The translations under genes were made by a program, and so were the position numbers. Below the pieces are notes generated by a model. It searched no databases, had not been told where the DNA came from, and worked only from the letters and a program-made list of their open reading frames with translations. Below, piece by piece: positions 22,838 to 64,000 of a stretch of 64,000 nt of DNA (position 1 is the first letter of the stretch; every line of letters begins with the position of its first letter). Origin of the DNA: Aquimarina agarilytica ZC1 (GTDB lineage: Bacteria > Bacteroidota > Bacteroidia > Flavobacteriales > Flavobacteriaceae); the NCBI RefSeq assembly GCF_000255455.1, contig NZ_JH621256.1, positions 1-64,000 on the forward strand, given 5' to 3'.

Positions 22838-23953
22838 CTAGAAAGAGTAGATAGCACCTAATACGAAAGAAGCTAAAGATTTACCAACATCTCCATTAGA
22901 ATCTTCTAAGAAAGTATCTTCAGAAGTTGAATCTAAACGTAATTCAGGTTTGATTGTTAAGTTTCCTGCAGTATAAGAACCAGTCAAAGTTGTAGCAAAA
23001 ACAGAACCATTTCTTTCATTGTCTAATCCAAAAGCTTCTGCTAATCCACCTTTAAAAACTTCAAAATATTCACCTCTTAAACCTAATGTAAAAGCGTCTG
23101 ATATAGCATATTGTGGGTATAGTGCAGCACCATAGAATCCAGCATCGTCAACATTACCTTCAAAGGAAGTAGTATTGTAAGTAGCATTTACTCCTAAATA
23201 AAACTCTTCTGATATATCCCATCCAGTGGTTAAATCAATCTGGAAAGTTTCATTTTGTAAAGCTTGCGCATCGAAATCAGCTTGATTTCCATACAATACA
23301 TTTAAATAAGCACTACCGGCATCATTTGAATATCCAACCTGTAAACCACCAGAGTATTTTCCGGCTAAGTTGTTATTTGTAAAATCAGTTGCATTAAGTA
23401 TAGCTGCCATAACAGACCAGTTATCGTCAATTGCAAAGTCAGCTTTCAATCCAGTATGAGAAAATGGTCCGTTCGAAAACATATACGATGTAGAATAGTT
23501 AAAGTTACCTGCAGGTGAGATTACTTCATATCCTAAGAAAGTGTTAAAGTTACCAAAAGTTAAAGTAACGGCATCAGATGCAGCATAAGTAACAAACAAT
23601 TGATTCACGATATTTGAAGATCCCGTAGTGTTTAAAACTGCGTCTGTTCCTCTGGGTCCAAAAACTAAATCAGCTACAAATCCAACTTTTCCTATTTGCT
23701 TACTAGCAATAAGATTAGCCATACCTAAAGCAAAACCATCTGCATTTGCAAAAGCACTGCTTGGAGCAATTAAAGCACCATTTCCAGTATTGTTAGCATT
23801 TTTTCCACCGATGTTAGTTCTAAAGTAAGTATCAACAGATCCGCTTAATTCAAAAGTAGATTCTTTTACAGTTTCTTCTTCCTGAGCAATAGCAGTAAAA
23901 CCTACTAAAGATAATGCAGCTAAAGCTGCTCCTTTAAAGAAATTTTTTTTCAT
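22838..23953 (-). CDS. Outer-membrane beta-barrel porin (BBP2/OmpL-like)
   Basis: 371 residues. A signal peptide ending near FTAIAQ is followed by a short acidic stretch and then alternating beta-strand sequence to a C-terminal phenylalanine (FVLGAIYSF), as outer-membrane barrels require. FELSGSVDTYFRTNIGG opens the barrel; GNFNTFLGYEVISPAGNFNYSTSY resembles the bacterial beta-barrel porin-2 family. Presumed role: passive or selective diffusion channel in the outer membrane. The permeant is unknown. It is monocistronic, with a strong terminator. The 293 bp upstream is AT-rich and holds nothing else I can identify. Confidence 0.82.
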   Translation of the reverse strand: MKKNFFKGAALAALSLVGFTAIAQEEETVKESTFELSGSVDTYFRTNIGGKNANNTGNGALIAPSSAFANADGFALGMANLIASKQIGKVGFVADLVFGPRGTDAVLNTTGSSNIVNQLFVTYAASDAVTLTFGNFNTFLGYEVISPAGNFNYSTSYMFSNGPFSHTGLKADFAIDDNWSVMAAILNATDFTNNNLAGKYSGGLQVGYSNDAGSAYLNVLYGNQADFDAQALQNETFQIDLTTGWDISEEFYLGVNATYNTTSFEGNVDDAGFYGAALYPQYAISDAFTLGLRGEYFEVFKGGLAEAFGLDNERNGSVFATTLTGSYTAGNLTIKPELRLDSTSEDTFLEDSNGDVGKSLASFVLGAIYSF

Positions 23954-24246
23954 AATAATAGTTAAATAGTTAATAAACTTTTACTCGTTATAAAATAAGT
24001 ATTGCTACTTAATTCGGTGTCAAAAATAATTTATAGTTGGAGAGGTCGCAAGAAAATTAACTTAAAAAACGGAATTTTTGCGAAAAGCGTATTTAAAAAC
24101 GATTTTTTTAATATTATATTAATATATGTGGGTGATTATCTATTTTTTTAATGTTATTTTATAGTGTTTTTTGGTATTTCATCAGAATATATTAAAAAAT
24201 AATAGAAATAATAGGTATGTGTAATGTTAAATTACAGTGAAATTAC

Positions 24247-49858: not shown

Positions 49859-51658
49859 TTATTCAGCAATGGGATAATTAATTACCACACGGGTTCCACT
49901 ACTAGGAGTTGAATTTAAAAATACTCGGCCGTTAATATACTCCATTCGTTCTTTCATAAAAAATAAGCCCATACCTCCTTCTGAAGTATCTTTAGGTGTT
50001 TTTGGCATTTTTGAAGGATCAAAACCTTTACCATTATCGGTGATTGATATACTTAATAATTGATCAGTTTTTTTCATAGAAACTAAAATATAAGTTGCTT
50101 CAGCATATTTAATGGCATTATTTATAGACTCTTGAGTAACTCGATATAAGTTTGTTTCTACTAATGTTTCAAACCTTAAATTATCTTCAACATTATTTTC
50201 AAAAATAATTTCGGTTTTAGTAAACTTATTAAGTTGATTGGTCATTTTTTGAATAGCCGTAATTACACCATAATCCAGTAATTCAGGTGGTGTCAAATTA
50301 AAAGTAGCCATGCGAACGCCTAAAATAATATTTTTAGTCTGCTCTTTTAAAACATCAACTTTATCAATAAATTTTTCATTTTGAGTTGGATCAAGGGATT
50401 CGATATTAAATTTTAATGCCGTAAGCATTTGACCAATGCTATCGTGTATATCTTTGGCAATACGTTTACGTTCCTCTTCTTGCGCTTCAACAATTAAGCT
50501 AGCTTTCGATTTTTGAATGGCGGATTCAGTTTTAATTTTATCCTCTCTAAGAATATCTATTTTGTTTTGAGCCTTTTTTCGTTTAGATATATCTAAACAC
50601 ACAATTAAGTATTCAACAATTCCTTTATTTTTATTGATAGGAAAAATAGAGATATCCATCCAGTCGATTGGAGTATGTTTAAAGGAAACTTCAAATTCAT
50701 GATTTAAAATAGTGCCTTTTTGCGAATTAATAAGTTGCTTTAATTCTTGTTGTTGAAGGATATTTAAGCCTAAATTTTCGTAAATAATATGTTTTAAATT
50801 ACTCTTCTCTCTATTGATAATTTCTTGCATTTTTTTTCCGCTTGAAATTATAGTGCCATCTTGATCAATACGAGCAAAAAATAAATTTTGATTTATAGCT
50901 TTTTGAAGTACTTGTAGCTCTTCTAAGGTTTCATTTTTTTGTTTTACGGCAGTGTTGGCCTTTTCAGCCATTTTAACAGCGTTATCTTTGGATAGAATAA
51001 GTTCCGAAATAGTCGTTTTAATTTTACTAGTTGCTGGTCTAAATAGTAAAAAGAATTCAGCTAGTAGGAGTAGAAATAATAAAGCAAAGGCAATATATTC
51101 AATTCGTTTTATAGTATTAATTTTTTCCGAGGCATAGGCTTCATAAGCATATACATAGTCATTCATTTTATTTAAAAATGCGGGTTCTTTTTTTATAAAA
51201 GCAGTAATCCATTTGTTTGCCTCTATTTTATCACTGTGAATAGAATTTTGAATTTTTTTACTTATGACTAACAACTCATTAATTTCAAGATTCACTTCAA
51301 AAAAAAGGTTTTCAAGAGTTGTTTTTCGGGATGATTTAGGTAAGGTATTTAAATTATTTTTTAAAAGTGTGTGTGCTTCAGACCATTCTTTTAATGAATT
51401 GTTTAATTCATTATTATTATCCCTTGTTATTTGAAGCGGTGAATTCCAAAGCAAAATAGTTTTGCTTATTTTTTGACTCAGCATGCGCTGTTTTCCCGCA
51501 ATATTAATTATTTGTGCATCAAAGTCATTATTAGCCAAAGCTCCTTGAATAAATACTTGTGTCACTATAACTAAAAAAGCAATAAAGCCTAAAGCAATCA
51601 TGTAAACTTTACTTAATGTGCTAAAGGTTTTGTCATCTAAGGATTCTTTACTATTCAT
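49859..51658 (-). CDS. NarX/PilJ-like sensor histidine kinase with PAS domain
   Basis: 599 residues. Membrane helix ~16-36; periplasmic sensor (about 38-180) with DAQIINIAGKQRMLSQKI, which resembles the nitrate-binding P-box of NarX and PilJ-type domains; second membrane helix ~188-206. A helical linker, a PAS domain (~258-370), HisKA_3 with the phosphorylatable His in RKRIAKDIHDSIGQML (~401), and HATPase with NAIKYAEA and GGMGLFFMKERM complete it. Its start overlaps the stop of the DUF4202 gene (TAATG), so both are translated together. NarL-type regulators pair with HisKA_3 kinases; the regulator at 62722 is the obvious candidate partner. Nitrate or nitrite as signal is inferred. Confidence 0.88.
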   Translation of the reverse strand: MNSKESLDDKTFSTLSKVYMIALGFIAFLVIVTQVFIQGALANNDFDAQIINIAGKQRMLSQKISKTILLWNSPLQITRDNNNELNNSLKEWSEAHTLLKNNLNTLPKSSRKTTLENLFFEVNLEINELLVISKKIQNSIHSDKIEANKWITAFIKKEPAFLNKMNDYVYAYEAYASEKINTIKRIEYIAFALLFLLLLAEFFLLFRPATSKIKTTISELILSKDNAVKMAEKANTAVKQKNETLEELQVLQKAINQNLFFARIDQDGTIISSGKKMQEIINREKSNLKHIIYENLGLNILQQQELKQLINSQKGTILNHEFEVSFKHTPIDWMDISIFPINKNKGIVEYLIVCLDISKRKKAQNKIDILREDKIKTESAIQKSKASLIVEAQEEERKRIAKDIHDSIGQMLTALKFNIESLDPTQNEKFIDKVDVLKEQTKNIILGVRMATFNLTPPELLDYGVITAIQKMTNQLNKFTKTEIIFENNVEDNLRFETLVETNLYRVTQESINNAIKYAEATYILVSMKKTDQLLSISITDNGKGFDPSKMPKTPKDTSEGGMGLFFMKERMEYINGRVFLNSTPSSGTRVVINYPIAE

Positions 51659-52242
51659 TAACCTAAGGCTTTTTGAATTAAAGATAATCCTTTGTCGGAA
51701 TAATTTATTTTTAATGCAGCTTCATGACCAGCATCAGACATTTTTTTCCAGGTTTTTTGTACAATATCAATAACCTTTTCATCGGTATGTTTTTTTCTAA
51801 AAGTTTCGTAGTAATATTCAAGAAACACTAGACAAATTACATCCTCTAAGGTTTGGGTATCCGCATCTTTTTTTAAGCGTTTTTTTTCTAACAAAAATGC
51901 AACACGCTCAATAGTTTCGGAATCAAAATTTAAACGATTTAAAATATCGGAGGCTGTTTTAGCATGAAACCTTTTTAATTCGGTACGCCAAGTTAAGTAA
52001 CCTACCCGATTCATTTCATATGCATTTCGAGGGATCTCCCAACGGCAAATATGTTGGCACCTTGCGGCCAATTGTAACGCAATAGGAGCGTTTGGAGCAA
52101 ATTGTGATAAAACTTTGGTCATGCGTTGACCGTAAATCAATTCTTTTGGAATAGGGGTGTTATTAACAATTTCAGTATTAGGATCTTTTGAATTGGCATG
52201 ATCGAATGCTTCGTAAGCTTTGTTAATTTGTGGTGTATTCAT
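51658..52242 (-). CDS. DUF4202 domain protein
   Basis: 194 residues, predominantly helical and soluble. DUF4202 landmarks are QINKAYEAFDHANSKDPN, ELIYGQRMTKVL, LAARCQHICRWEIPR, YLTWRTELKRFHA and LEDVICLVFLEYY. The conserved His, Arg, Glu and Asp residues suggest an enzyme-like or metal-binding site, perhaps HD-like, but no activity is known to me. It is translationally coupled to the NarX-like kinase and close to nitrite reductase, which points to a role in nitrate/nitrite signalling. Confidence 0.85.
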   Translation of the reverse strand: MNTPQINKAYEAFDHANSKDPNTEIVNNTPIPKELIYGQRMTKVLSQFAPNAPIALQLAARCQHICRWEIPRNAYEMNRVGYLTWRTELKRFHAKTASDILNRLNFDSETIERVAFLLEKKRLKKDADTQTLEDVICLVFLEYYYETFRKKHTDEKVIDIVQKTWKKMSDAGHEAALKINYSDKGLSLIQKALG

Positions 52243-56050: not shown

Positions 56051-56428
56051 CTATTCAGCAAATCCAATAAATACATTATCCCCTTCAATTTTAACAGGGT
56101 ACGTGGCAATAGGATCAATATCACCATTAAGGTTTTCTCCATTTTCTAATGAAAATGTTTTTTTATGTAGTGGGCAAGCAACTTTTGGAGTTCCTTTGTC
56201 ATCACCAATCATTCCACGGCTTAATACCATTTCCATTTTATGTGGGCATACATTTTGACATGCATACCATTTTCCTGTTCTGGCAAAATTAAATACAGCT
56301 ATTTGTTTGTTTTTATACTTAACACAAGCACCTCCATCGGCAGGAAAATCATTAATACTAGCGGCTTTAAACCAAACTTTTACTTCTTCTATCGAAGTAC
56401 TATTATATCTATCTAGAATTGCTTCCAT
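56051..56428 (-). CDS. nirD: Nitrite reductase small subunit (Rieske-type NirD)
   Basis: 125 residues, the small subunit of cytoplasmic NADH-dependent assimilatory nitrite reductase. The Rieske-like fold keeps a full cluster-ligand pattern: C-P-H in NVCPHKMEMVLSRGM and C-P-L-H in VACPLHKKTFSLENG. GDIDPIATYPVKIEGDNVFIG closes the domain. Some NirD proteins lack these ligands, so a [2Fe-2S] cluster may be bound here. It follows nirB on the same strand with a ~100-bp gap and ends in the terminator at 55951. It should be controlled from the nirB promoter. Confidence 0.93.
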   Translation of the reverse strand: MEAILDRYNSTSIEEVKVWFKAASINDFPADGGACVKYKNKQIAVFNFARTGKWYACQNVCPHKMEMVLSRGMIGDDKGTPKVACPLHKKTFSLENGENLNGDIDPIATYPVKIEGDNVFIGFAE

Positions 56429-56527: not shown

Positions 56528-59047
56528 TTACTTCCAATGCTCTGGCATTTTTTGTTCTCTTAACGGAACAAAAACCAAGTTATCATCATCATCATCACTA
56601 TTTACAAAATGACTAAAACGTTTCATCATTTCAGGATCTTCAATAGCTTGTTTCCACTCACATTCAAATTTATTTACAAGAGTTTGCATCTCTTTATCTA
56701 AATCGGCAGCAATACCTAATTTATCGTTAATTATGACCTCTTTAAGGTGTTCAATACCGCCTTCTAAACGATCTTGCCATGCAGCTGTACGTTGTAAAGG
56801 TTTTGCAGTACGCATGTAGTACATTAAATAACGATCCAAGTATTTAATAACCGTTTCATTGTCTATTTGCTCGGCAAGTAATTCGGCGTGACGTGGAGTA
56901 GCTCCTCCGTTTCCACCAACGTATAAATTCCATCCACCATCAACGGCAATTAAACCAAAATCTTTCCCACGCGCCTCTGCACATTCACGGATACATCCCG
57001 AGACTCCACCTTTGATTTTATGAGGAGAACGCATGCCTCGGTAACGATTTTCAAGTTCAATACCAAAGCTTACACTTTCGTCCATTCCGTACCTACACCA
57101 TGTAGAACCTACACAAGTTTTTACAGTACGTAATGATTTTCCGTAAGCGTGACCACTTTCAAAACCATTCTCAATTAATTCTTTCCAAATTAAAGGCAAT
57201 TGATTTAGCGTAGCTCCAAAAAAGTCAATACGAACACCACCAGTAATTTTGGTGTATAAGTCATATTTTTTGGCAATTTCTCCTAACACAATTAATTTTT
57301 CTGGAGTAATTTCTCCACCAGGAATACGTGGAACTACAGAATAAGTTCCATTACGTTGTATATTGGCTAAAAATCGATCATTAGAATCTTGAATAGCATA
57401 TTCTTTATTAGCTGTGTCGGCGTGTATGGTTGCCATTAATGAAGCTACTAAAGGCTTACATAACTCACATCCATGACCTCCATTTCCATGAGTATCTAAG
57501 ACTTCATTGAATGTTGTAAAACCTTTTACTTGGATAATGTCGTATAATTCCTGACGGTTATAATCAAAGTGTTCACACACATTGTCCTTAACCACACGTC
57601 CTAATGACTTTAAAGTAGCGTCAACCAAATCTTTAACCATTGGTTTACAGCCACCACATCCTGTTCCTGCTTTTGTACAGCTAACCACATCGCCTAAATC
57701 ATTGGCTTTACCGCTTTCAATGGCATTACATATTTGTCCTTTGGTAACGCTTTCGCAAGAACAAATTTGAGCATCATCAGGTAAATCCATTACGTCACCT
57801 AATAATGAGCCACCTTCGCCACCACGACTACCTAAAATTAAATCTTCAGGATCTTCAGGTAACTTCATACCATTACTATAAATTTGGAATAAGGAGTTGT
57901 AGTCAGAAGAATCACCAACTAAAATACCACCTAATAATTTTTTTCCATCTTTAGTAACGTTTATTTTTTTATAAATACCATTACGTTTATTCACGTAAGT
58001 GATTTCGTCTAAATCTTCTTTAGCATCATTTAATGCGTCACCAAAACTAGCAACCTCAGTACCAATAAGCTTTAATTGAGTAGACATGTCAATATACTCT
58101 GGCATTTCATCGGTACCCCCAGTTAATTGATCAACTACTACTTCTGCCATGTCATAACCTGGAGCCACCAAGCCATAAATCATACTGTTTAAAAGGGCAC
58201 ATTCACCAATAGCATAAATATTTGGATCCGAAGTAAGCATGTTTTGGTTAACCAAAATACCACCACGTGTTCCTACTTCAAGTCCACACTCACGTGCTAC
58301 AGCATCGCGAGGACGTATACCTGCTGAAACAACTAGCATGTCTACTTTTAATTCAGTGCCATCAACATATTGAAGACCTTCAATAGCTTTGTCACCTTGT
58401 ATATGCTGTGTTTGTTTAGATAAGTGTACCTTTAAACCAAGGCTTTCTATTTTAGCCTGTAACATATCACTAGCACCTTTGTCCAATTGTCTTGGCATAA
58501 GCCTTGGAGCAAATTCAACAACATGTGCGTTTAAGCCTAAATTTTTAACCGCATTCGCAGCTTCCAAACCTAAAAGTCCACCACCAAGAACAGCAGCTTC
58601 AGTTTTACCTGCAGCTTTTAATTTTTTAGCGTAAGCCTCAGTAGCCTCTAAATCTTCAATGGTACGATAAACAAAAACACCTTCTTTTTCCACACCTGGA
58701 ATTGGGGGAACAAAGGCAGACGAACCTGTTGCTAATACTAAATAGTCATAAGAATATTTATCACCACGGTGGTTAGCTACCGTTTTATTTTCACGATCAA
58801 TTTCGGTAATCATTTCCGAAATATGAAGATCGATGTTGTTTTCTGTGTACCAAGTTGCTGAGGACATACTTAAATCTTCAGCAGTTTTACCGTCGTAAAA
58901 TTCACTTAAATGTACACGATCATAAGCGCGTCTTGGTTCTTCTCCAAATACGACAAGCTCAAATTCAGAATAGTTTGGGTGTGCTGCAAGTTTTTCACAA
59001 AACTTATAACCTACCATACCATTTCCAATTACAATTACTTTTTTCAT
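56528..59047 (-). CDS. nirB: Assimilatory nitrite reductase large subunit NirB
   Basis: 839 residues; reduces nitrite to ammonium with NAD(P)H. Order: FAD/NAD-binding reductase (GNGMVGYKFCEKL, ATGSSAFVPPIPG, VLGGGLLGLEAAN), two BFD-like [2Fe-2S] segments (CSCESVTKGQI with TGCGGC; then HGNGGHGCELC), and a ferredoxin-like domain. The sirohaem/[4Fe-4S] site has C-x5-C in TCVGSTWCRYG and C-x3-C in SGCIRECAEARGKD. Length and architecture are standard. Upstream are two tandem TAAGTA-N4-TACKTA palindromes at 59074-59109 touching a -7 box. nirD follows. Nitrate reductase is not in the window. Confidence 0.97.
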   Translation of the reverse strand: MKKVIVIGNGMVGYKFCEKLAAHPNYSEFELVVFGEEPRRAYDRVHLSEFYDGKTAEDLSMSSATWYTENNIDLHISEMITEIDRENKTVANHRGDKYSYDYLVLATGSSAFVPPIPGVEKEGVFVYRTIEDLEATEAYAKKLKAAGKTEAAVLGGGLLGLEAANAVKNLGLNAHVVEFAPRLMPRQLDKGASDMLQAKIESLGLKVHLSKQTQHIQGDKAIEGLQYVDGTELKVDMLVVSAGIRPRDAVARECGLEVGTRGGILVNQNMLTSDPNIYAIGECALLNSMIYGLVAPGYDMAEVVVDQLTGGTDEMPEYIDMSTQLKLIGTEVASFGDALNDAKEDLDEITYVNKRNGIYKKINVTKDGKKLLGGILVGDSSDYNSLFQIYSNGMKLPEDPEDLILGSRGGEGGSLLGDVMDLPDDAQICSCESVTKGQICNAIESGKANDLGDVVSCTKAGTGCGGCKPMVKDLVDATLKSLGRVVKDNVCEHFDYNRQELYDIIQVKGFTTFNEVLDTHGNGGHGCELCKPLVASLMATIHADTANKEYAIQDSNDRFLANIQRNGTYSVVPRIPGGEITPEKLIVLGEIAKKYDLYTKITGGVRIDFFGATLNQLPLIWKELIENGFESGHAYGKSLRTVKTCVGSTWCRYGMDESVSFGIELENRYRGMRSPHKIKGGVSGCIRECAEARGKDFGLIAVDGGWNLYVGGNGGATPRHAELLAEQIDNETVIKYLDRYLMYYMRTAKPLQRTAAWQDRLEGGIEHLKEVIINDKLGIAADLDKEMQTLVNKFECEWKQAIEDPEMMKRFSHFVNSDDDDDNLVFVPLREQKMPEHWK

Positions 59048-59067: not shown

Positions 59068-59109
59068 CAAAAATAAGTATTTATGCTTATTTTTAAGTAC
59101 AAATACGTA
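59068..59109 (-). promoter_or_regulatory. nirB promoter with two tandem TAAGTA-N4-TACTTA-type palindromes
   Basis: -7 box TATTTTTG (minus strand, 59068-59075). Palindrome 1 TAAGTA-TTTA-TGCTTA at 59074-59089 overlaps the box by 2 bp. Palindrome 2 TAAGTA-CAAA-TACGTA at 59094-59109 starts exactly 20 bp further. The latter is centred about 40 bp upstream of the expected transcript start, a classic activator position. Confidence 0.7.
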
Positions 59110-59124
59110 ATTTTTTGTTAATTT

Positions 59125-59154
59125 AAAAGGACTATCTAGCTAGATAGTCCTTTT
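59125..59154 (-). terminator. Rho-independent terminator of the NarK-type transporter gene
   Basis: AAAAGGACTATCT / AGATAGTCCTTTT around AGCT; both flanks suit a terminator. It separates the transporter from nirB, so the two are independent transcripts sharing one operator type. Confidence 0.88.
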
Positions 59155-59206
59155 TTAAAATTATTATAAATAAATAATTTAGTGATTTACTAAGGAAATG
59201 TGTTAA

Positions 59207-60568
59207 TTAAGCTAATGCTGTTGCTGTTGACGCATCAATTTCTCGTTGTAAATCTTCTAATTTTTTTTGTTCATCTTTTGCAAGTTGTTCTTCTTGAGGA
59301 GTGAATCTAACCAGTAAACCTAAGAAACCTACTGCGGCTACGATAAATCCAAAAGCAAAGAATGCTTCTTGTAAACTAGAGCCACTTCTCAATAAATATT
59401 GAGCATATAATACGGCACCAACATTACCACCAGCACCAACGATACCAGCAACTGCTCCTAAAGCTTTTCTGTTTATAAATGGAACTACAGAATAAGTGGC
59501 ACCTTCTGCCATTTGAACAAATAATGAGAAGAATACCATAGAGGTAACTGCTAGGCTTAATGAATTCATTTGAGAGAATAATAATAAGGCTAAACCTTCA
59601 GCAACAACTACGTATACTAGTATTTTTACCCTGCCGTTTAATCCAGAGTTTTTTCCAAATTTATCTGCAATCCAACCCCCAGTTGAACGGGCAAATAAGT
59701 TCATTGCTCCAAAGAATAATACGATAAATCCAGCAGTCTGTTGACTTAGGCTAAATTTTTCTTGATAATAAGTAGAAGCTTTCCCGGTAACAAATAATTC
59801 CATACCGAAACATCCTGCGTACATTAAGAATAAAATCCATACTCTTTTATCCGAAGCCGCAGTCATGAAAGAACCTTTTTCTCCTTTTTTAGTTTGTGGT
59901 CTTTCTTCTGGAAGGTCTTCATAATTACCTTTTGGGCAATCTGTTGTGTATTTCCAGTATAAAAATGCAACTAGTAACATAATTGCAGCAGGGACATACA
60001 TCGCAATTCTCCATGATGATGTAGCTTCAGCAAAACCGAAAGCGGTTACACCGGCTGCTATTAATGGCATGGTAGCATTAGTAACACCACCTCCTAAGTT
60101 ACCCCAGCCTGCGGTAGTTGCATTAGCTATACCTATAACGTTTGGAGCAAACATAACAGAGGTGTGGTATTGAGTGATCACAAAAGATGCGCCAATAACC
60201 CCTATGGCTAAACGCGAAAACAAGTAAGTTTCCCAAGTGTTTGCAAATGAAGATCCTGCAACTGCTAAGGCTCCAAAAATTAATAAGTATACATAACTTT
60301 TTCTTGGTCCAATCTTATCACATAAAGGGCCAATAAGTAAACGAGCAAAAATGGTAACTCCTACCGATGCAATAAAAGCCAAAGTAGTTTGCGCTTTGGT
60401 TAATGCTAAATCTGGTGCGATAGTGGATTTCATTAATGGCGCATGAGAGAACCATCCGAAGAAACACAAAAAGAAAGCGATCCAGCTCAAGTGGAAGGTT
60501 CGCATTTGTACGCTTTTAAAATCAGTAAGCTTTATTTTCGTAGCCTTACTAGTACTTAAATTATTCAT
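59207..60568 (-). CDS. narK: MFS nitrate/nitrite transporter (NarK/NasA family)
   Basis: 453 residues, twelve membrane helices. Family signatures are LLIGPLCDKIGPRKSYVYLL (MFS motif between helices 2 and 3), nitrate signature 1 TAGWGNLGGGVTNATMPLI, and signature 2 GIVGAGGNVGAVLYAQYL. It imports nitrate (and possibly exports nitrite) to feed the nirBD pathway. A short acidic/helical C-terminal tail follows the last helix. It is transcribed alone from a promoter with TAAGTA-N4-TACTTA operators and ends at the palindromic terminator at 59125. narK versus nasA naming cannot be decided. Confidence 0.93.
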   Translation of the reverse strand: MNNLSTSKATKIKLTDFKSVQMRTFHLSWIAFFLCFFGWFSHAPLMKSTIAPDLALTKAQTTLAFIASVGVTIFARLLIGPLCDKIGPRKSYVYLLIFGALAVAGSSFANTWETYLFSRLAIGVIGASFVITQYHTSVMFAPNVIGIANATTAGWGNLGGGVTNATMPLIAAGVTAFGFAEATSSWRIAMYVPAAIMLLVAFLYWKYTTDCPKGNYEDLPEERPQTKKGEKGSFMTAASDKRVWILFLMYAGCFGMELFVTGKASTYYQEKFSLSQQTAGFIVLFFGAMNLFARSTGGWIADKFGKNSGLNGRVKILVYVVVAEGLALLLFSQMNSLSLAVTSMVFFSLFVQMAEGATYSVVPFINRKALGAVAGIVGAGGNVGAVLYAQYLLRSGSSLQEAFFAFGFIVAAVGFLGLLVRFTPQEEQLAKDEQKKLEDLQREIDASTATALA

Positions 60569-60599
60569 AATTTCTAGGAAGTATTAAATTAATCGACTG

Positions 60600-60642
60600 C
60601 GAAAGTAAGTATTTTTTTTAAATACGTAAGTAATTATACTTA
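60600..60642 (-). promoter_or_regulatory. Nitrate-transporter promoter with TAAGTA-N4-TACTTA operator
   Basis: -7-like box TACTTTCG (minus strand, 60600-60607), with a TAAGTA half site at 60606-60611 overlapping it by 2 bp. A perfect palindrome TAAGTA-ATTA-TACTTA lies at 60627-60642, 21 bp away. Confidence 0.65.
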
Positions 60643-60669
60643 TTTATTTTGAATTACATAATTTATTAT

Positions 60670-60840
60670 TTAATCCGTTTTCTATATTAGAACTTCGTTA
60701 TAAGTATTGAAAGCTCAATAAAATCAAGTGTTTTTTTGATTTCAGCATAGCATGGTTTTGGTTAAATCAAAAATTGAGCGAAGCCTTTGATTTTGATAAA
60801 TTTCGATATGGAATAGATTTTTTAATGTATAATTCGGGTT
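60670..60840 (+). repeat. MITE-like AACCCGAAT-ended repeat, full-length copy
   Basis: About 171 bp: degenerate left end (TAATCCGTTTTCTATATTAG), AACTTCGTTATAAGTATTG, AAGCTCAATAAAAT, GATTTCAGCATAGCA, GAGCGAAGCCTTTGATTTTG, ATGGAATAGATTTTTTAATG and a right end ATAATTCGGGTT. It lies just upstream of the transporter promoter region and next to the porin terminator. Confidence 0.75.
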
Positions 60841-60846
60841 TAATGC

Positions 60847-60881
60847 AAAAAAAGCTTGCCGATTGATCGACAAGCCTTTTT
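60847..60881 (-). terminator. Rho-independent terminator of the porin gene
   Basis: GCTTG...CAAGC core with inner CGAT/ATCG pairing, A-run on the left and T-run on the right. It ends the leftward gene at 60919. Confidence 0.85.
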
Positions 60882-60918
60882 TATAATAAAGTTAGTATTC
60901 AGTTAAGTATTTTGTATA

Positions 60919-62247
60919 TTATTTAGCTTCTGGAGCAGCTTCTTTTTTCCATTTGAATAAGTTTGGTTTAATGGTTAACATTACCCATCCCCAACTTTGG
61001 TTACTGTCAGGATTACCCCCAGTTCTTGCATCTGCAAAGTCATCACCTAAAAATGATTGTGAGTATCCAACTTTAACATTGGCATAAGGAGTGATACCTT
61101 GTGCATATACTAAATCGACAGCAGTTCCTAAATTTTTGTCGAAACCGCTTGGTGCGTCAGCAGCACTAAAGTTATGAACAAAACCAATTAATTTTGATTT
61201 AGCTCCAGTTTTAATAACTGTTTTTAAATGTATATCAATAAGTCCAACATTATTAGCATGTCTTCCTACGTAAAAGAAATCTTGGAAACCATTAAATTTG
61301 TGGTTGGTACCAAATAAAGGGAAGAAAGCTTTGGTCTCTCCGCCGCCTGTACCGTCTTCATCACCGCTAAGTATTTCTGCTCCTAATCCGATCAATTTAA
61401 AAGCACCACTTGAAGGTTTATAACCTGCAAATAATGAAGCTTGAAAAGCATTGATATCTACAGCATCATTAAATTGTCCAAATTGATAGTAACCACTACC
61501 AGTTACAGTAAAGCTACTATCGCTGTAATCAAAATATATACCAGTTGTTTGTCTAGAAGATGTTCCAGGTGTTGAATCTCCTTCAACTAAAGGATTTTGA
61601 AAAGTATTGTTTAAGAATAAAAAGCTTCCTTTGAAGTTTTCAGATAATTTTCCAGAGGCATGTAAAAGTTGCATGGCTTTGTATTGGAATATTGGTGCAC
61701 CAAGACCTCTTGAAGAAAATTGAGTGTCAAAGTTGTTTCCTCCATCTCTTTCTTGATTAAACGCAAAACCTAGATCTAATTTAAAGCTAGATTTTTTATA
61801 TCTTAACAAAGCAACATCGTGAGTTCTTTGTTGTTGAGCCCATCCAAGACCACCTAAAATACGTTGATCATCATAACTTAATAATTGACGACCTACTTTT
61901 GTAGAAAAACCATTTCCTAATTTGATTTCTGCCCATGCTTGATTAACTAAAAAACCTGTCTGGTTAGCGACATCATCATTAGCAGATAGTTGTGGGCGAT
62001 CTCCCCATACGCTTACATCTTGAAAATCTAAAAAAGCGGTGATTTTTGAATCTGTATATTTTAGTAATAAAGATGATCTTTGCGATACGAAAGCAGCAGG
62101 TTCTGCATCTTTAGGAGCTACATCTTGAAATCCATTACGGAATTCAAAACGAGGTCTAATCATTGCATCAACCGATAATTCTTGTGCAGTTGCACTATAA
62201 AGCCCTAATCCTAATAGCGCGCTAGTAAGTAAATGTGATTTTTTCAT
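60919..62247 (-). CDS. Outer-membrane porin, alginate-export (AlgE-like) family
   Basis: 442 residues. The signal peptide ends near SATAQ and alternating beta-strand sequence follows throughout. RPRFEFRNGFQD, SQRSSLLLKYTDSKITAFLDFQDVSVWGDRP, QAWAEIKLGNGFSTKVGRQLLSYDDQRILG and HDVALLRYKKSSFKLDLGFAFNQE are typical of the family. In this setting, between a nitrate transporter and a response regulator and with the same operator, it most likely lets nitrate or nitrite cross the outer membrane; alginate export is not implied. It is transcribed alone, with promoter at 62281. Confidence 0.87.
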   Translation of the reverse strand: MKKSHLLTSALLGLGLYSATAQELSVDAMIRPRFEFRNGFQDVAPKDAEPAAFVSQRSSLLLKYTDSKITAFLDFQDVSVWGDRPQLSANDDVANQTGFLVNQAWAEIKLGNGFSTKVGRQLLSYDDQRILGGLGWAQQQRTHDVALLRYKKSSFKLDLGFAFNQERDGGNNFDTQFSSRGLGAPIFQYKAMQLLHASGKLSENFKGSFLFLNNTFQNPLVEGDSTPGTSSRQTTGIYFDYSDSSFTVTGSGYYQFGQFNDAVDINAFQASLFAGYKPSSGAFKLIGLGAEILSGDEDGTGGGETKAFFPLFGTNHKFNGFQDFFYVGRHANNVGLIDIHLKTVIKTGAKSKLIGFVHNFSAADAPSGFDKNLGTAVDLVYAQGITPYANVKVGYSQSFLGDDFADARTGGNPDSNQSWGWVMLTIKPNLFKWKKEAAPEAK

Positions 62248-62280
62248 ATAATTTAGTTATGATTATAAATAACAACGAGA

Positions 62281-62317
62281 CAAATATAAGTATTAATACT
62301 TAGTTTATATCTAAGTA
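62281..62317 (-). promoter_or_regulatory. Porin promoter with TAAGTA-N4-TACTTA operator
   Basis: -7 box TATATTTG (minus strand, 62281-62288). The perfect palindrome TAAGTA-TTAA-TACTTA (62287-62302) overlaps it by 2 bp, the same geometry as nirB. A further half site TAAGTA is at 62312-62317. Confidence 0.7.
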
Positions 62318-62648
62318 TTTTTGATTTTTTTGTGATTAGTTGGATTATTGTTTATTCCTTAAAAAATGGAACATGTTTAACATATAACCTTATAGTTTAC
62401 TTGGTTAAAAGTAAGTTAAAATTATAAATATTTGATTTTTAGAAATTTATATTTTTTTGTATATAATTTGTATGGATAATTATTACTTCGATTTACGGAG
62501 ATTTTTATACTTAAAATAGAAAATACAATAGTTGTAAAGTTAATTTTTAATTATAAAAAATATTAAAACTACGTATTATAAATAAGTATTACCTATGCAT
62601 AATATGTCTAAAAATTATTTTTTTTTAGGTATTGTTACTTTTTTAGAT
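62318..62648. other. AT-rich divergent intergenic region
   Basis: Between the porin and response-regulator promoters. It has a TACGTA at 62570-62575 and TAAGTA at 62583-62588 but no full palindrome. I see no ORF or RNA gene. Confidence 0.45.
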
Positions 62649-62696
62649 TACTTATAAAGAAAGAATTTTGTATATTTCATTACTTAGTTATTTTTG
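62649..62696 (+). promoter_or_regulatory. Response-regulator promoter with TACTTA half sites
   Basis: TACTTA at 62649-62654 and 62681-62686, the second ending 2 bases before the exact -7 box TATTTTTG (62689-62696). The layout TACTTAGTTATTTTTG is nearly that of the globin promoter, TACTTAGTTAATTTG. This may allow autoregulation. Confidence 0.5.
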
Positions 62697-62721
62697 TACT
62701 TTTTATAAATCGAAAAATTTA

Positions 62722-63414
62722 ATGCATATACATAAAATTCTACTTGTTGATGATCATTCTTTAGTACGTGATGGAATCAAATCTTTATTAGAAAATGAAT
62801 CTGATTTAGAGGTGATTGGAGAAGCATCTAATGGGGAAGAGGCTATTACACGAACAAATAATTTGCAGCCAGATTTAGTGATTTGTGATATTAGAATGCC
62901 TAAAAAAACAGGTATCGAAGCTGTTTCAGAATTAGCAAAACAACATCCTACTATAAGGTTTATTATGCTTTCGATGCATGATTCGGAAGAGTATATTTTA
63001 CAATCAATTCAAGCTGGGGCACATGGTTATTTGTTGAAAGATGCAGGTAAAGATGAAGTGCTTAAAGCTATTCATTCTGTGCTCGAAGGCGGGAAGTATT
63101 TTAGTGGAGATGTGTCATCAATATTAGTAAACAACCTAGTTAGTGGGGGCTTAGGAGCTAAAAGTGTAAGTGCGCCTTTGCATAATGATATTAATTCCGA
63201 AGGAGGAGGTGTCGCAAACTTTAATCTGACTAAACGTGAAAAGCAAATATTAGAAAAAGCAGTTGCAGGTTTGAGTAATAAAGAAATTGCAGAAGAGTTA
63301 GGTATAAGCAAACGTACAACCGAAGTGCATCGTTTTAACTTAATGAAAAAATTAAATGTAAAGAATATCCTTGATTTAAGTAACAAGGCACGTAAATATG
63401 ATTTGTTAGATTAA
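62722..63414 (+). CDS. NarL/LuxR-type response regulator
   Basis: 230 residues from ATG 62722 (MHIHKILLVDDHSLVRDG); the frame runs 18 codons upstream across the -7 box, so that part is not translated. The receiver domain (about 4-120) has acidic pair VDD, phospho-Asp in LVICDIRMPKKTG, and the Lys in YLLKDAGKDE. A Gly/Ser-rich linker leads to a LuxR-type helix-turn-helix (LTKREKQILEKAVAGLSNKEIAEELGISKRTTEVH). It is flanked by nitrate genes with shared operators, so it is the best candidate activator. The HisKA_3 kinase at 49859 is the likely phosphodonor, though unlinked by ~11 kb. Confidence 0.9.
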   Translation: MHIHKILLVDDHSLVRDGIKSLLENESDLEVIGEASNGEEAITRTNNLQPDLVICDIRMPKKTGIEAVSELAKQHPTIRFIMLSMHDSEEYILQSIQAGAHGYLLKDAGKDEVLKAIHSVLEGGKYFSGDVSSILVNNLVSGGLGAKSVSAPLHNDINSEGGGVANFNLTKREKQILEKAVAGLSNKEIAEELGISKRTTEVHRFNLMKKLNVKNILDLSNKARKYDLLD

Positions 63415-63438
63415 ATAATCAATCTAAAGAGAATTTAC

Positions 63439-63470
63439 AACTCAAAAGCTATTAGTTTTTGAGTTTTTTT
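63439..63470 (+). terminator. Rho-independent terminator of the response regulator gene
   Basis: AACTCAAAA / TTTTGAGTT stem with a ~9-nt loop followed by a run of T. Confidence 0.85.
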
Positions 63471-63575
63471 ATGCTTAAGCTTTAATTTTTTTTCTAATTT
63501 TTCAATATTTTATTATTAAAAGCTCTTTATTCATATTTTTTTGTTTTCATATTTCTATGATTAATAAAAATGAGA

Positions 63576-63626
63576 TACTTAGTTATAATACTTAAATTAA
63601 CTAAGTATTTATACTTAGTTAATTTG
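63576..63626 (+). promoter_or_regulatory. Globin promoter with TAAGTA-N4-TACTTA operator
   Basis: A near-perfect extended palindrome, CTAAGTA-TTTA-TACTTAG, lies at 63601-63618 (core 63602-63617), followed 1 bp later by a -7-like TTAATTTG (63619-63626). TACTTA half sites at 63576-63581 and 63589-63594 may form a weaker second operator. Confidence 0.65.
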
Positions 63627-63664: not shown

Positions 63665-64000
63665 ATGGATAGTAAAACTAAAGAGTTAGTACAAGGAACA
63701 TTTGGTCAAGTGGCACCTATTGCTGATAAAGCTGCTGAAATTTTTTATACTAAGCTTTTTGAAAAAGATCCTTCATTAAAACCCATGTTTAAGGGAGATA
63801 TGAAAGATCAAGGCGCTAAACTAATGGCAATGATCGGTACTGCTGTTAATGGTTTGGATAATTTAGATGCTTTAATACCTGCAGTGCAGAATTTGGGTAA
63901 GGGACATGCGGGTTATGGTGTTGAAGATAAGCATTACGATACGGTTGGAGCGGCATTATTGGAAACCTTGGAGGTAGGTTTAGGAGATAAGTTTACGGCA
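63665..64000 (+). CDS. Globin-family protein (truncated by window end)
   Basis: The first 112 residues are visible; the gene runs off the window. It starts MDSKTKELVQGTFGQVAPIA. The globin fold is clear: helix A/B, AEIFYTKLFEKDPSLKPMFKGDM, and the proximal-His region NLGKGHAGYGVEDKHYDTVG, ALLETLEVGLGDKFTA. It could be a single-domain globin or the N-terminus of a flavohaemoglobin (Hmp) that detoxifies nitric oxide. Its promoter carries the same palindrome as nirB and the transporter, which fits protection from NO formed during nitrate use. Confidence 0.88.
   Translation, partial: MDSKTKELVQGTFGQVAPIADKAAEIFYTKLFEKDPSLKPMFKGDMKDQGAKLMAMIGTAVNGLDNLDALIPAVQNLGKGHAGYGVEDKHYDTVGAALLETLEVGLGDKFTA

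Follow-up and report, generated by a model that had tools for sequence, protein, structure and literature searches.

A conserved TAMGTA-N4-TACKTA palindrome at nitrate-assimilation promoters of Flavobacteriaceae, candidate site of a nitrate-type two-component system

The closest described relatives of the system discussed here are the NarXL and NarQP pairs of Escherichia coli, FixLJ of Alphaproteobacteria, the regulator SsrB, and a Bacteroidetes kinase and regulator pair that a 2021 review calls narHK/narRR (PMC8199190). That review labels the pair in a gene-order figure and, as in the locus described below, a kinase of this class is found with a regulator gene nearby; however, the available passages of the review name neither a DNA site nor a regulon, and the words nasA and nirB are absent from its main text. 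No DNA site or regulon of a nitrate two-component system of Bacteroidota was found in the open-licence papers searched. Here we analyse the palindrome TAAGTA-N4-TACTTA, which recurs upstream of nitrate and nitrite genes in a stretch of 64,000 nucleotides (hereafter the window) of Aquimarina agarilytica ZC1, a member of the Flavobacteriaceae (contig NZ_JH621256.1, positions 1 to 64,000). The palindrome proves genuine and appears to have a regulatory role. We consider it likely, from the comparisons that follow, that its refined form TAMGTA-N4-TACKTA is the site of the nitrate-type two-component system of Bacteroidota and that the response regulator encoded at 62722 is its binder.

Occurrence and conservation of the palindrome

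Exact copies of TAAGTA-N4-TACTTA lie at 60627, 62287, 63602 and 23996 of the window (Table 1). The first three had been listed in an initial annotation of this DNA; the site at 59074 (TAAGTATTTATGCTTA), given there as a full copy, carries one mismatch, as does its neighbour at 59094 (TAAGTACAAATACGTA), and the copy at 23996, of which all three close relatives hold an identical version, lies beyond that list. Matches with up to two mismatches number 23 in the window, against 10.1 +/- 3.0 expected and 19 in the largest shuffle. The promoter of the response regulator (62500-62721) contains half sites and no full palindrome, in agreement with the annotation.

Genome-wide, the exact motif is found at 7 places, 5 of them on the contig of the window. 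The nirB promoters of relatives show that the third base of the half site may be A or C, and the form refined accordingly, TAMGTA-N4-TACKTA, occurs at 15 places in the 4.25-Mb genome compared with 3 for the reversed pattern. Six belong to the nitrate cluster between 59 and 73 kb (59094, 60627, 62287, 63602, 71693 and 73016), and together with those at nasA, the divergent gltB/P-II promoter, glutamine synthetase, a Nit1C-like cluster and a BBP2 porin, 11 of the 15 places are accounted for by the nitrate cluster and by genes whose nitrogen role is known or suspected. Two further places, C6:57977 and C25:55599, have no assigned meaning, and the ones on C13 and C54 lie inside reading frames. Since the refinement was learnt on nirB relatives, the nirB counts obtained with it are partly circular, but those for narK, nasA, nrtA and the own genome are not.

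Conservation was examined mainly in 80 nirB loci from named contigs (L030-L109, 1.66 Mb), 79 of them with a nirB start; the closest, from an uncultured Aquimarina sp. and A. agarivorans (L030-L032), are 95-99% identical. A relaxed motif, TA[AC]GT[AG]-N4-[TC]AC[GT]TA, searched within 200 bp, precedes nirB in 79/79 testable loci, mostly 38-52 bp before the start codon, and the strict form, TAMGTA-N4-TACKTA, is present within 300 bp in 77/79. Double nirB sites 20-22 bp apart occur in L030, L031, L032 and L037. In a further set of 27 mostly more divergent loci, 26 of them with nirB, the relaxed motif was found at 23. The 80 loci contain 250 strict matches; the reversed pattern and two scrambled controls give none, the spacers N2, N3, N5, N6 and N8 give between 2 and 15 (in ascending order of count 2, 3, 8, 9 and 15), and the everted version gives 28, which third half sites may explain. 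Nearly all strict matches (240/250) lie at most 300 bp upstream of nirB, narK, nasA, the porin, the regulator, nrtA, a free PilJ-domain protein or the globin; upstream of nirD, the DUF4202 gene, the kinase gene and nrtB-D there are none in the 80 loci. By gene, the motif is upstream of nrtA in 34/34 cases, narK in 27/31, the porin in 28/37, nasA in 24/37, the free PilJ gene in 15/22, the globin in 5/8 and the regulator in 45/61. The proposal of a shared regulon is upheld, with sites conserved upstream of orthologous nirB and narK genes and present at the porin, the globin and nasA. It cannot be called local, since nasA lies on a different contig and the set extends in this lineage to a nitrilase cluster, to gltB/P-II and to glutamine synthetase.

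The distribution of the genes points in the same direction. Among 299 genomes of the family, searched at E <= 1e-100 for nirB and E <= 1e-40 for the kinase, nirB is present in 67, from 56 of the 236 genera sampled, and kinase matches fall in the identical 67 genomes; a class-wide sample gave the kinase in 8/395. All 67 nirB genomes contain at least 2 motif matches, with a median of 7. The median is 1 in the 232 genomes without nirB, and 93 of these have none.

Promoter register and candidate binder

In flavobacteria, the sigma-A -7 box has been described as TAnnTTTG at -12 to -5 (PMC9723704). At 315 promoter sites in the relatives, this box starts at the last TA of the palindrome (offset 0) in 175 cases, compared with 2.75 expected from shuffles, which confirms the 2-bp overlap of site and box. 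Further peaks are seen at offsets 8-12 (35 counts) and 20-24 (8 counts), with 2 counts between them; a third, degenerate half site, once more in contact with the -7 box, accounts for part of the 10-bp peak. Offset 0 accounts for 77/100 nirB, 27/30 porin, 24/38 nasA, 20/36 narK and 21/43 nrtA sites, and a -33 TTG, 17-22 bp before the box, is found in 4/111 offset-0 promoters compared with 23/116 others of the same loci. In the window, the 2-bp overlap with the -7 box that the initial annotation had described exists at nirB (TACT-TATTTTTG) and the porin (TACT-TATATTTG). At the transporter this position is taken not by the palindrome but by the half site at 60606, next to a -7 box with one mismatch (TACTTTCG), and the globin promoter has no clean TAnnTTTG at the expected position next to its site.

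These features suggest how the system might work. The sensor would most likely be the PilJ-HisKA_3 kinase at 49859, which by its domains (PilJ-type sensor, HisKA_3, HATPase) resembles NarX and NarQ and is predicted to sense nitrate; no HAMP domain is found among its Pfam matches, unlike in the E. coli proteins. Once phosphorylated, presumably in response to nitrate, the regulator would occupy both half sites as a dimer. The gene-proximal half site appears to run into the -7 box as TACKTA-n-TTTTG, its final TA serving as the TA of TAnnTTTG, at most nirB and porin promoters and at about half to two thirds of those of narK, nasA and nrtA, and the merged palindrome would cover roughly -26 to -11. 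Merged promoters mostly lack the -33 TTG, and palindromes at other offsets tend to lie about one or two helical turns upstream. A regulator bound there could contact RNA polymerase and replace the missing -33 contact, which would amount to activation. Taken together, the fixed register, the peaks at about one and two turns and the depleted -33 TTG argue for activation by polymerase contact over occlusion, a sign of control that we regard as fairly likely. The core targets would be nirBD, narK, nasA, nrtABCD and the porin, often with the regulator and the free PilJ protein.

The regulator was detected in 13/13 and 18/18 whole genomes searched (31/31); in two of them (G566 and G614) its gene stands apart from nirB, beside the DUF4202 gene. 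Inspection by eye of the protein families that recur in 8 or more of 74 loci beyond the main Aquimarina set recognised just two DNA-binding ones, this regulator (55 loci) and a Crp-type protein. The best full-length match of the regulator in the PDB is NarL (1a04, E 3.8e-33), and the matches of its helix-turn-helix part are, in order, 1yio, EsrB and FixJ (1x3u, E 3.8e-11), and with the latter it shares the recognition helix RT.EVHR.N.M. It is below the NCBIfam cut-offs for orthologues of E. coli NarL (NF007935, 155.1 bits versus 250) and of FixJ (NF006900, 96.4 bits versus 255), and its likeness to FixJ, judged from these matches, is confined to the DNA-reading part. Its presence in all 31 genomes and its FixJ-like helix bear out its choice as the best candidate binder in the initial annotation, binding itself being inferred.

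Variation in the recognition helix is accompanied by variation in the half site. TACGTA makes up 130/452 halves in loci whose regulator reads EVHR, 121/170 in those with ETHR and 4/16 in those with alanine, and as raw counts the covariation reaches Fisher values of 1e-11 and 3e-15. The residue concerned is presumably Val189 of NarL, on which a literature search gave nothing. The set omits L039, L108 and L131, for which no regulator sequence with the helix was available, and the V/T test leaves aside three genomes with alanine; the version restricted to nirB sites omits L112 and L118, where there is no nirB site. On the nirB tree, 6 independent V/T pairs are available, of which 5.3-5.5 on average change in the same way (sign-test medians 0.03-0.06). 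The nirB and regulator trees disagree: ETHR requires 11 changes on the former, which comprises 103 loci, and 3 on the latter. This conflict suggests that nirB was transferred between lineages and that its promoter changed later.

Evidence against the proposed site and rival explanations

Several observations weigh against the proposed site, binder or mode of action. Across the genome, one-mismatch copies of the plain motif are no more frequent than those of the reversed control (42 versus 63 places), and as a genome-wide test the plain motif was too loose and was replaced by the degenerate half site from nirB promoters; the freedom of the third half-site base would account for this, and the specificity check that the plain motif fails is passed by the refined one, both in the genome and in the 80 loci. 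At nirB of L110 and L118 no relaxed site is found, and the spacer in L112 is 5 bp. At least 2 motif matches are also found in 92 of the 232 genomes that lack nirB. The Tll0287-like gene that heads a cytochrome operon has a site in the own genome and none in 6 other loci holding that gene, and only 20/61 regulator promoters carry a motif separate from that of the divergent porin. Offset 0 is rare at the regulator (4/48), free PilJ (1/15) and globin (1/5) promoters, and activators do not usually bind at about -26 to -11. In the PDB, two structures (1yio and EsrB) match the helix-turn-helix part better than FixJ does, and FixJ motifs vary between studies to the point that a common consensus has been said to be lacking (PMC4999443). 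The regulator tree leaves 1 independent V/T pair; the covariation is therefore nearly a single event that any co-inherited factor would show, and it serves as supporting evidence only. As to the sensor, 6/67 kinase matches miss the sensor part, and the kinases of the L119-L122 nitrate clusters have no PilJ match and contain PAS, HisKA_3 and HATPase instead while the motif sites remain, which indicates that nitrate need not be the signal everywhere; a change of signal is possible in these kinases. In the divergent set, L113 holds a partial kinase match with neither nirB nor motif.

The explanation nearest to the one we prefer keeps the same regulator and the same sites and changes only the sign of control, so that our estimate for site and binder covers it as well. 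The regulator would mainly repress, covering the edge of the -7 box and blocking polymerase until nitrate lifts the block. The 2-bp overlap in 175/315 promoters would fit such a role, and E. coli NarL is described as repressing frdA from sites near the start (PMC4549865), but the fixed register, the upstream peaks at about 10 and 20 bp and the depletion of the -33 TTG would be expected more of an activator. This last argument is weakened at the 10-bp peak, where a degenerate half site abutting the -7 box contributes part of the counts. On balance we regard predominant repression as rather unlikely.

That a Crp/Fnr-family regulator binds the palindrome instead of the response regulator appears improbable. 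In its favour, tblastn places a protein that combines cNMP_binding and HTH_Crp_2 (PF00027 and PF13545, both above cut-off) in 20 nitrate-cluster loci, and the 4-bp gap of the palindrome would suit that family too. Yet a search at E <= 1e-8 gave no match to this protein in Aquimarina loci L030-L060, in the window or in the stretches of the own genome that were searched (part of the genome), and the sites there are the same; the response regulator, in turn, is present in 31/31 genomes, and the half site agrees with that of the published FixJ site. Helices of the E...R type in Crp/Fnr proteins recognise TGA-like cores. The protein itself, at L132:11609-12376 and in 19 other loci, has N-terminal cysteines that can be seen by eye.

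Still less probable is a global nitrogen regulator of Flavobacteriaceae, an analogue of NtcA or NtrC, for which the nitrate genes would be only part of the set. Sites at glutamine synthetase and gltB/P-II in the own genome and in 3/3 close relatives (G703-G705) would be in line with it, as would the gltB/P-II half sites, which stay constant while the spacers vary (TACA, GATA, TCCA, TGCT). Elsewhere, however, glutamine synthetase has no site with up to one mismatch in 29 other loci, nor in stretches of 800 bp from 20 genomes with the kinase and 19 without it, and P-II has none in the 500 bp upstream in 30 loci, 15 of them from other Aquimarina (30 of 63 listed matches). A family-wide global nitrogen motif was dropped as a candidate because these sites are absent outside the close relatives in the loci tested.

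Chance in AT-rich DNA or a repeat element is a negligible prospect. The unenriched plain motif would suit it, as would an element of the type TACGTAG-N2-CTACGTA, which inflates the counts in three inspected genomes without nirB; placement and conservation refute it (79/79 nirB genes, 240/250 matches upstream of cluster genes, 175/315 at offset 0). Those three genomes (G520, G581 and G586; L185-L199) have 18-19 motif matches each, mostly from that different element and its like in many intergenic copies, and inspection of 15 loci showed none next to nitrate genes.

Neighbouring genes, lineage-specific sites and comparison with known systems

Table 1. Genes and palindrome sites of the window, with refined sites elsewhere in the A. 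agarilytica ZC1 genome (positions with a C number are contig positions in our numbering and those with an L number refer to extracted loci).
Feature	Position	Strand	Remarks
PilJ-HisKA_3 histidine kinase (narHK)	49859..51658	(-)	PF13675, PF07730 and PF02518 above cut-off; candidate cognate kinase
DUF4202 protein	51658..52242	(-)	in relatives mostly between nirD and kinase gene
nirD, Rieske-type small subunit of nitrite reductase	56051..56428	(-)	PF13806
nirB, nitrite reductase large subunit	56528..59047	(-)	TIGR02374 and NF011565 above cut-off
nirB proximal site TAAGTATTTATGCTTA	59074..59089	(-)	1 mismatch; abuts -7 box TATTTTTG, minus strand
nirB distal site TAAGTACAAATACGTA	59094..59109	(-)	20 bp, about two turns, from proximal site
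NarK-type major facilitator superfamily transporter	59207..60568	(-)	PF07690; TIGR00886 303 bits, just below cut-off 311.7
narK site TAAGTAATTATACTTA	60627..60642	(-)	plus half site TAAGTA at 60606
Outer-membrane porin, Alginate_exp family	60919..62247	(-)	PF13372
Porin site TAAGTATTAATACTTA	62287..62302	(-)	abuts -7 box TATATTTG, minus strand
NarL/FixJ-family response regulator	62722..63414	(+)	receiver PF00072 8.7e-31, GerE helix-turn-helix PF00196 1.5e-20; candidate binder
Globin site TAAGTATTTATACTTA	63602..63617	(+)	upstream of globin gene
Globin gene start	63665..64000	(+)	63665-64555 on contig; two globin stretches
BBP2 porin	22838..23953	(-)	PF07642; under 23996 site
Exact site TAAGTATTGCTACTTA, also refined site at BBP2 porin	23996..24011 (C11:23996)	(-)	42 bp upstream of BBP2 porin gene 22838-23953
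Refined site at nasA	C8:19472		25 bp before gene, abuts TAGTTTTG
Refined site at divergent gltB/P-II promoter	C24:42786 (L022:4287)		
Refined site at glutamine synthetase	C17:74663 (L202:4001)		
Refined site at Nit1C-like cluster	C9:93463		MSMEG_0572/Sll0783-family nitrogen-starvation protein and Nit6803-family nitrilase

The DUF4202 protein is present in 76/80 loci. Beyond the window, the contig continues with the cytochrome operon headed by the Tll0287-like protein, the free PilJ-domain protein and a nitrate-type ATP-binding cassette transporter, nrtABCD, whose name comes from NMT1_2, permease and ATPase matches and from its position, with no nitrate-specific model behind it. The free PilJ-domain protein (contig positions 71976-72812; L016:11977-12813) adjoins nrtA and contains a P-box-like stretch; it is possibly a periplasmic nitrate binder. 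Further along, at 78253-78268 (L016:18254), a one-mismatch site abuts a perfect -7 box (TAATTTTG) and is directed into the stretch that separates nrtD from the end of moeA, in which no gene was seen. In the reductase that we call nasA (L020:4514-8035), a molybdopterin nitrate-type reductase is followed by a fused, C-terminal NirB-like reductase part (residues 708-1170). It passes none of the NCBIfam cut-offs shown, the best being formate dehydrogenase alpha (620.8 versus 666.25), and owes the name nasA to the location of its relatives in the nirB cluster. A nitrogen role for the BBP2 porin is a guess.

Glutamine synthetase, gltB/P-II and the Nit1C-like cluster seem to have gained the site in the own genome and in its closest relatives, the sites at the nitrilase cluster and at the BBP2 porin being present in 4/4 of these genomes. 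The names of the nitrilase and the starvation protein are backed by NCBIfam cut-offs, and those of glutamine synthetase, P-II and GltB by Pfam cut-offs, with glutamine synthetase and P-II falling short of the NCBIfam ones. As the glutamine synthetase and gltB/P-II sites were seen, among the loci tested, only in this group, the nitrate regulon seems to have acquired central nitrogen genes in one lineage. The three relatives have 15-16 motif matches each, of which part were inspected, and sites that precede genes without a known nitrogen role speak against a purely nitrogen-related reading of them. Such is the motif 15-16 bp upstream of an M1 peptidase (L211 and L213) and that 59-60 bp upstream of a protein of 434-437 residues (L210 and L217), each in 2/3 close relatives. 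The site at C6:57977 (TACGTATAAATACGTA; L200:4001) has counterparts in 3/3 close relatives; it is flanked by a reading frame that by eye resembles a dihydrolipoyl dehydrogenase and by a 523-residue protein with no Pfam match. A bolder combination of ideas, in which the nitrate switch took over central nitrogen assimilation in the A. agarivorans-like group and the half site fused to the -7 box replaces the -33 element in an architecture peculiar to the Bacteroidota sigma factor, is tentative and somewhat doubtful.

Flavobacteria are abundant marine bacteria, and the motif makes their decision to use nitrate testable wherever nirB occurs. It also offers a case of regulon growth inside one group of close relatives.

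With NarXL and NarQP of E. coli, the system shares a PilJ-type sensor domain, a HisKA_3 kinase and a NarL-family regulator. The Bacteroidetes kinases differ in being described without the HAMP and GAF-like parts (PMC8199190), and the targets found here look assimilatory. The DNA sites differ as well: E. coli 7-2-7 sites, TACCCCT-AA-AGGGGTA (PMC4549865), have TAC at the outer ends and a 2-bp spacer, whereas the sites described here read GTA-N4-TAC, with TAC facing inward. The initial annotation was therefore right that the orientation is opposite to that of NarL sites, but its suggestion of an arrangement specific to Bacteroidota has to be abandoned, because half site and spacing recur in a published FixJ site of Sinorhizobium meliloti, TAAGTAATTTCCCTTA, and the tail-to-tail heptamers of SsrB are likewise separated by 4 bp (PMC2837388). 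SsrB, also a NarL/FixJ-family regulator, differs in its degenerate, flexible site and in its unrelated targets.

The closest likeness is to FixLJ. The S. meliloti site and GTAMGTAG, one of two classes obtained for FixJ by systematic evolution of ligands by exponential enrichment (PMC4999443), agree with the palindrome described here in half site, A/C freedom and spacing, and the two systems have in common the TAMGTA half site, the 6-4-6 spacing and the helix RT.EVHR.N.M. The sites described here fit a FixJ-type site in half site, 4-bp spacer and palindromic form, with the reference consensus itself unsettled, and as far as sequence can tell the site class is FixJ-like. The two differ in promoter layout, since the fixK footprints lie at -69/-44 and -57/-31 and the sites here are near-perfect palindromes merged with the -7 box. 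They also differ in signal and targets: FixL senses oxygen via haem and FixJ controls fixK and nifA (PMC4999443), while here a PilJ kinase would govern nitrate genes. What the locus appears to present is a FixJ-type DNA code joined to a nitrate-type sensor.

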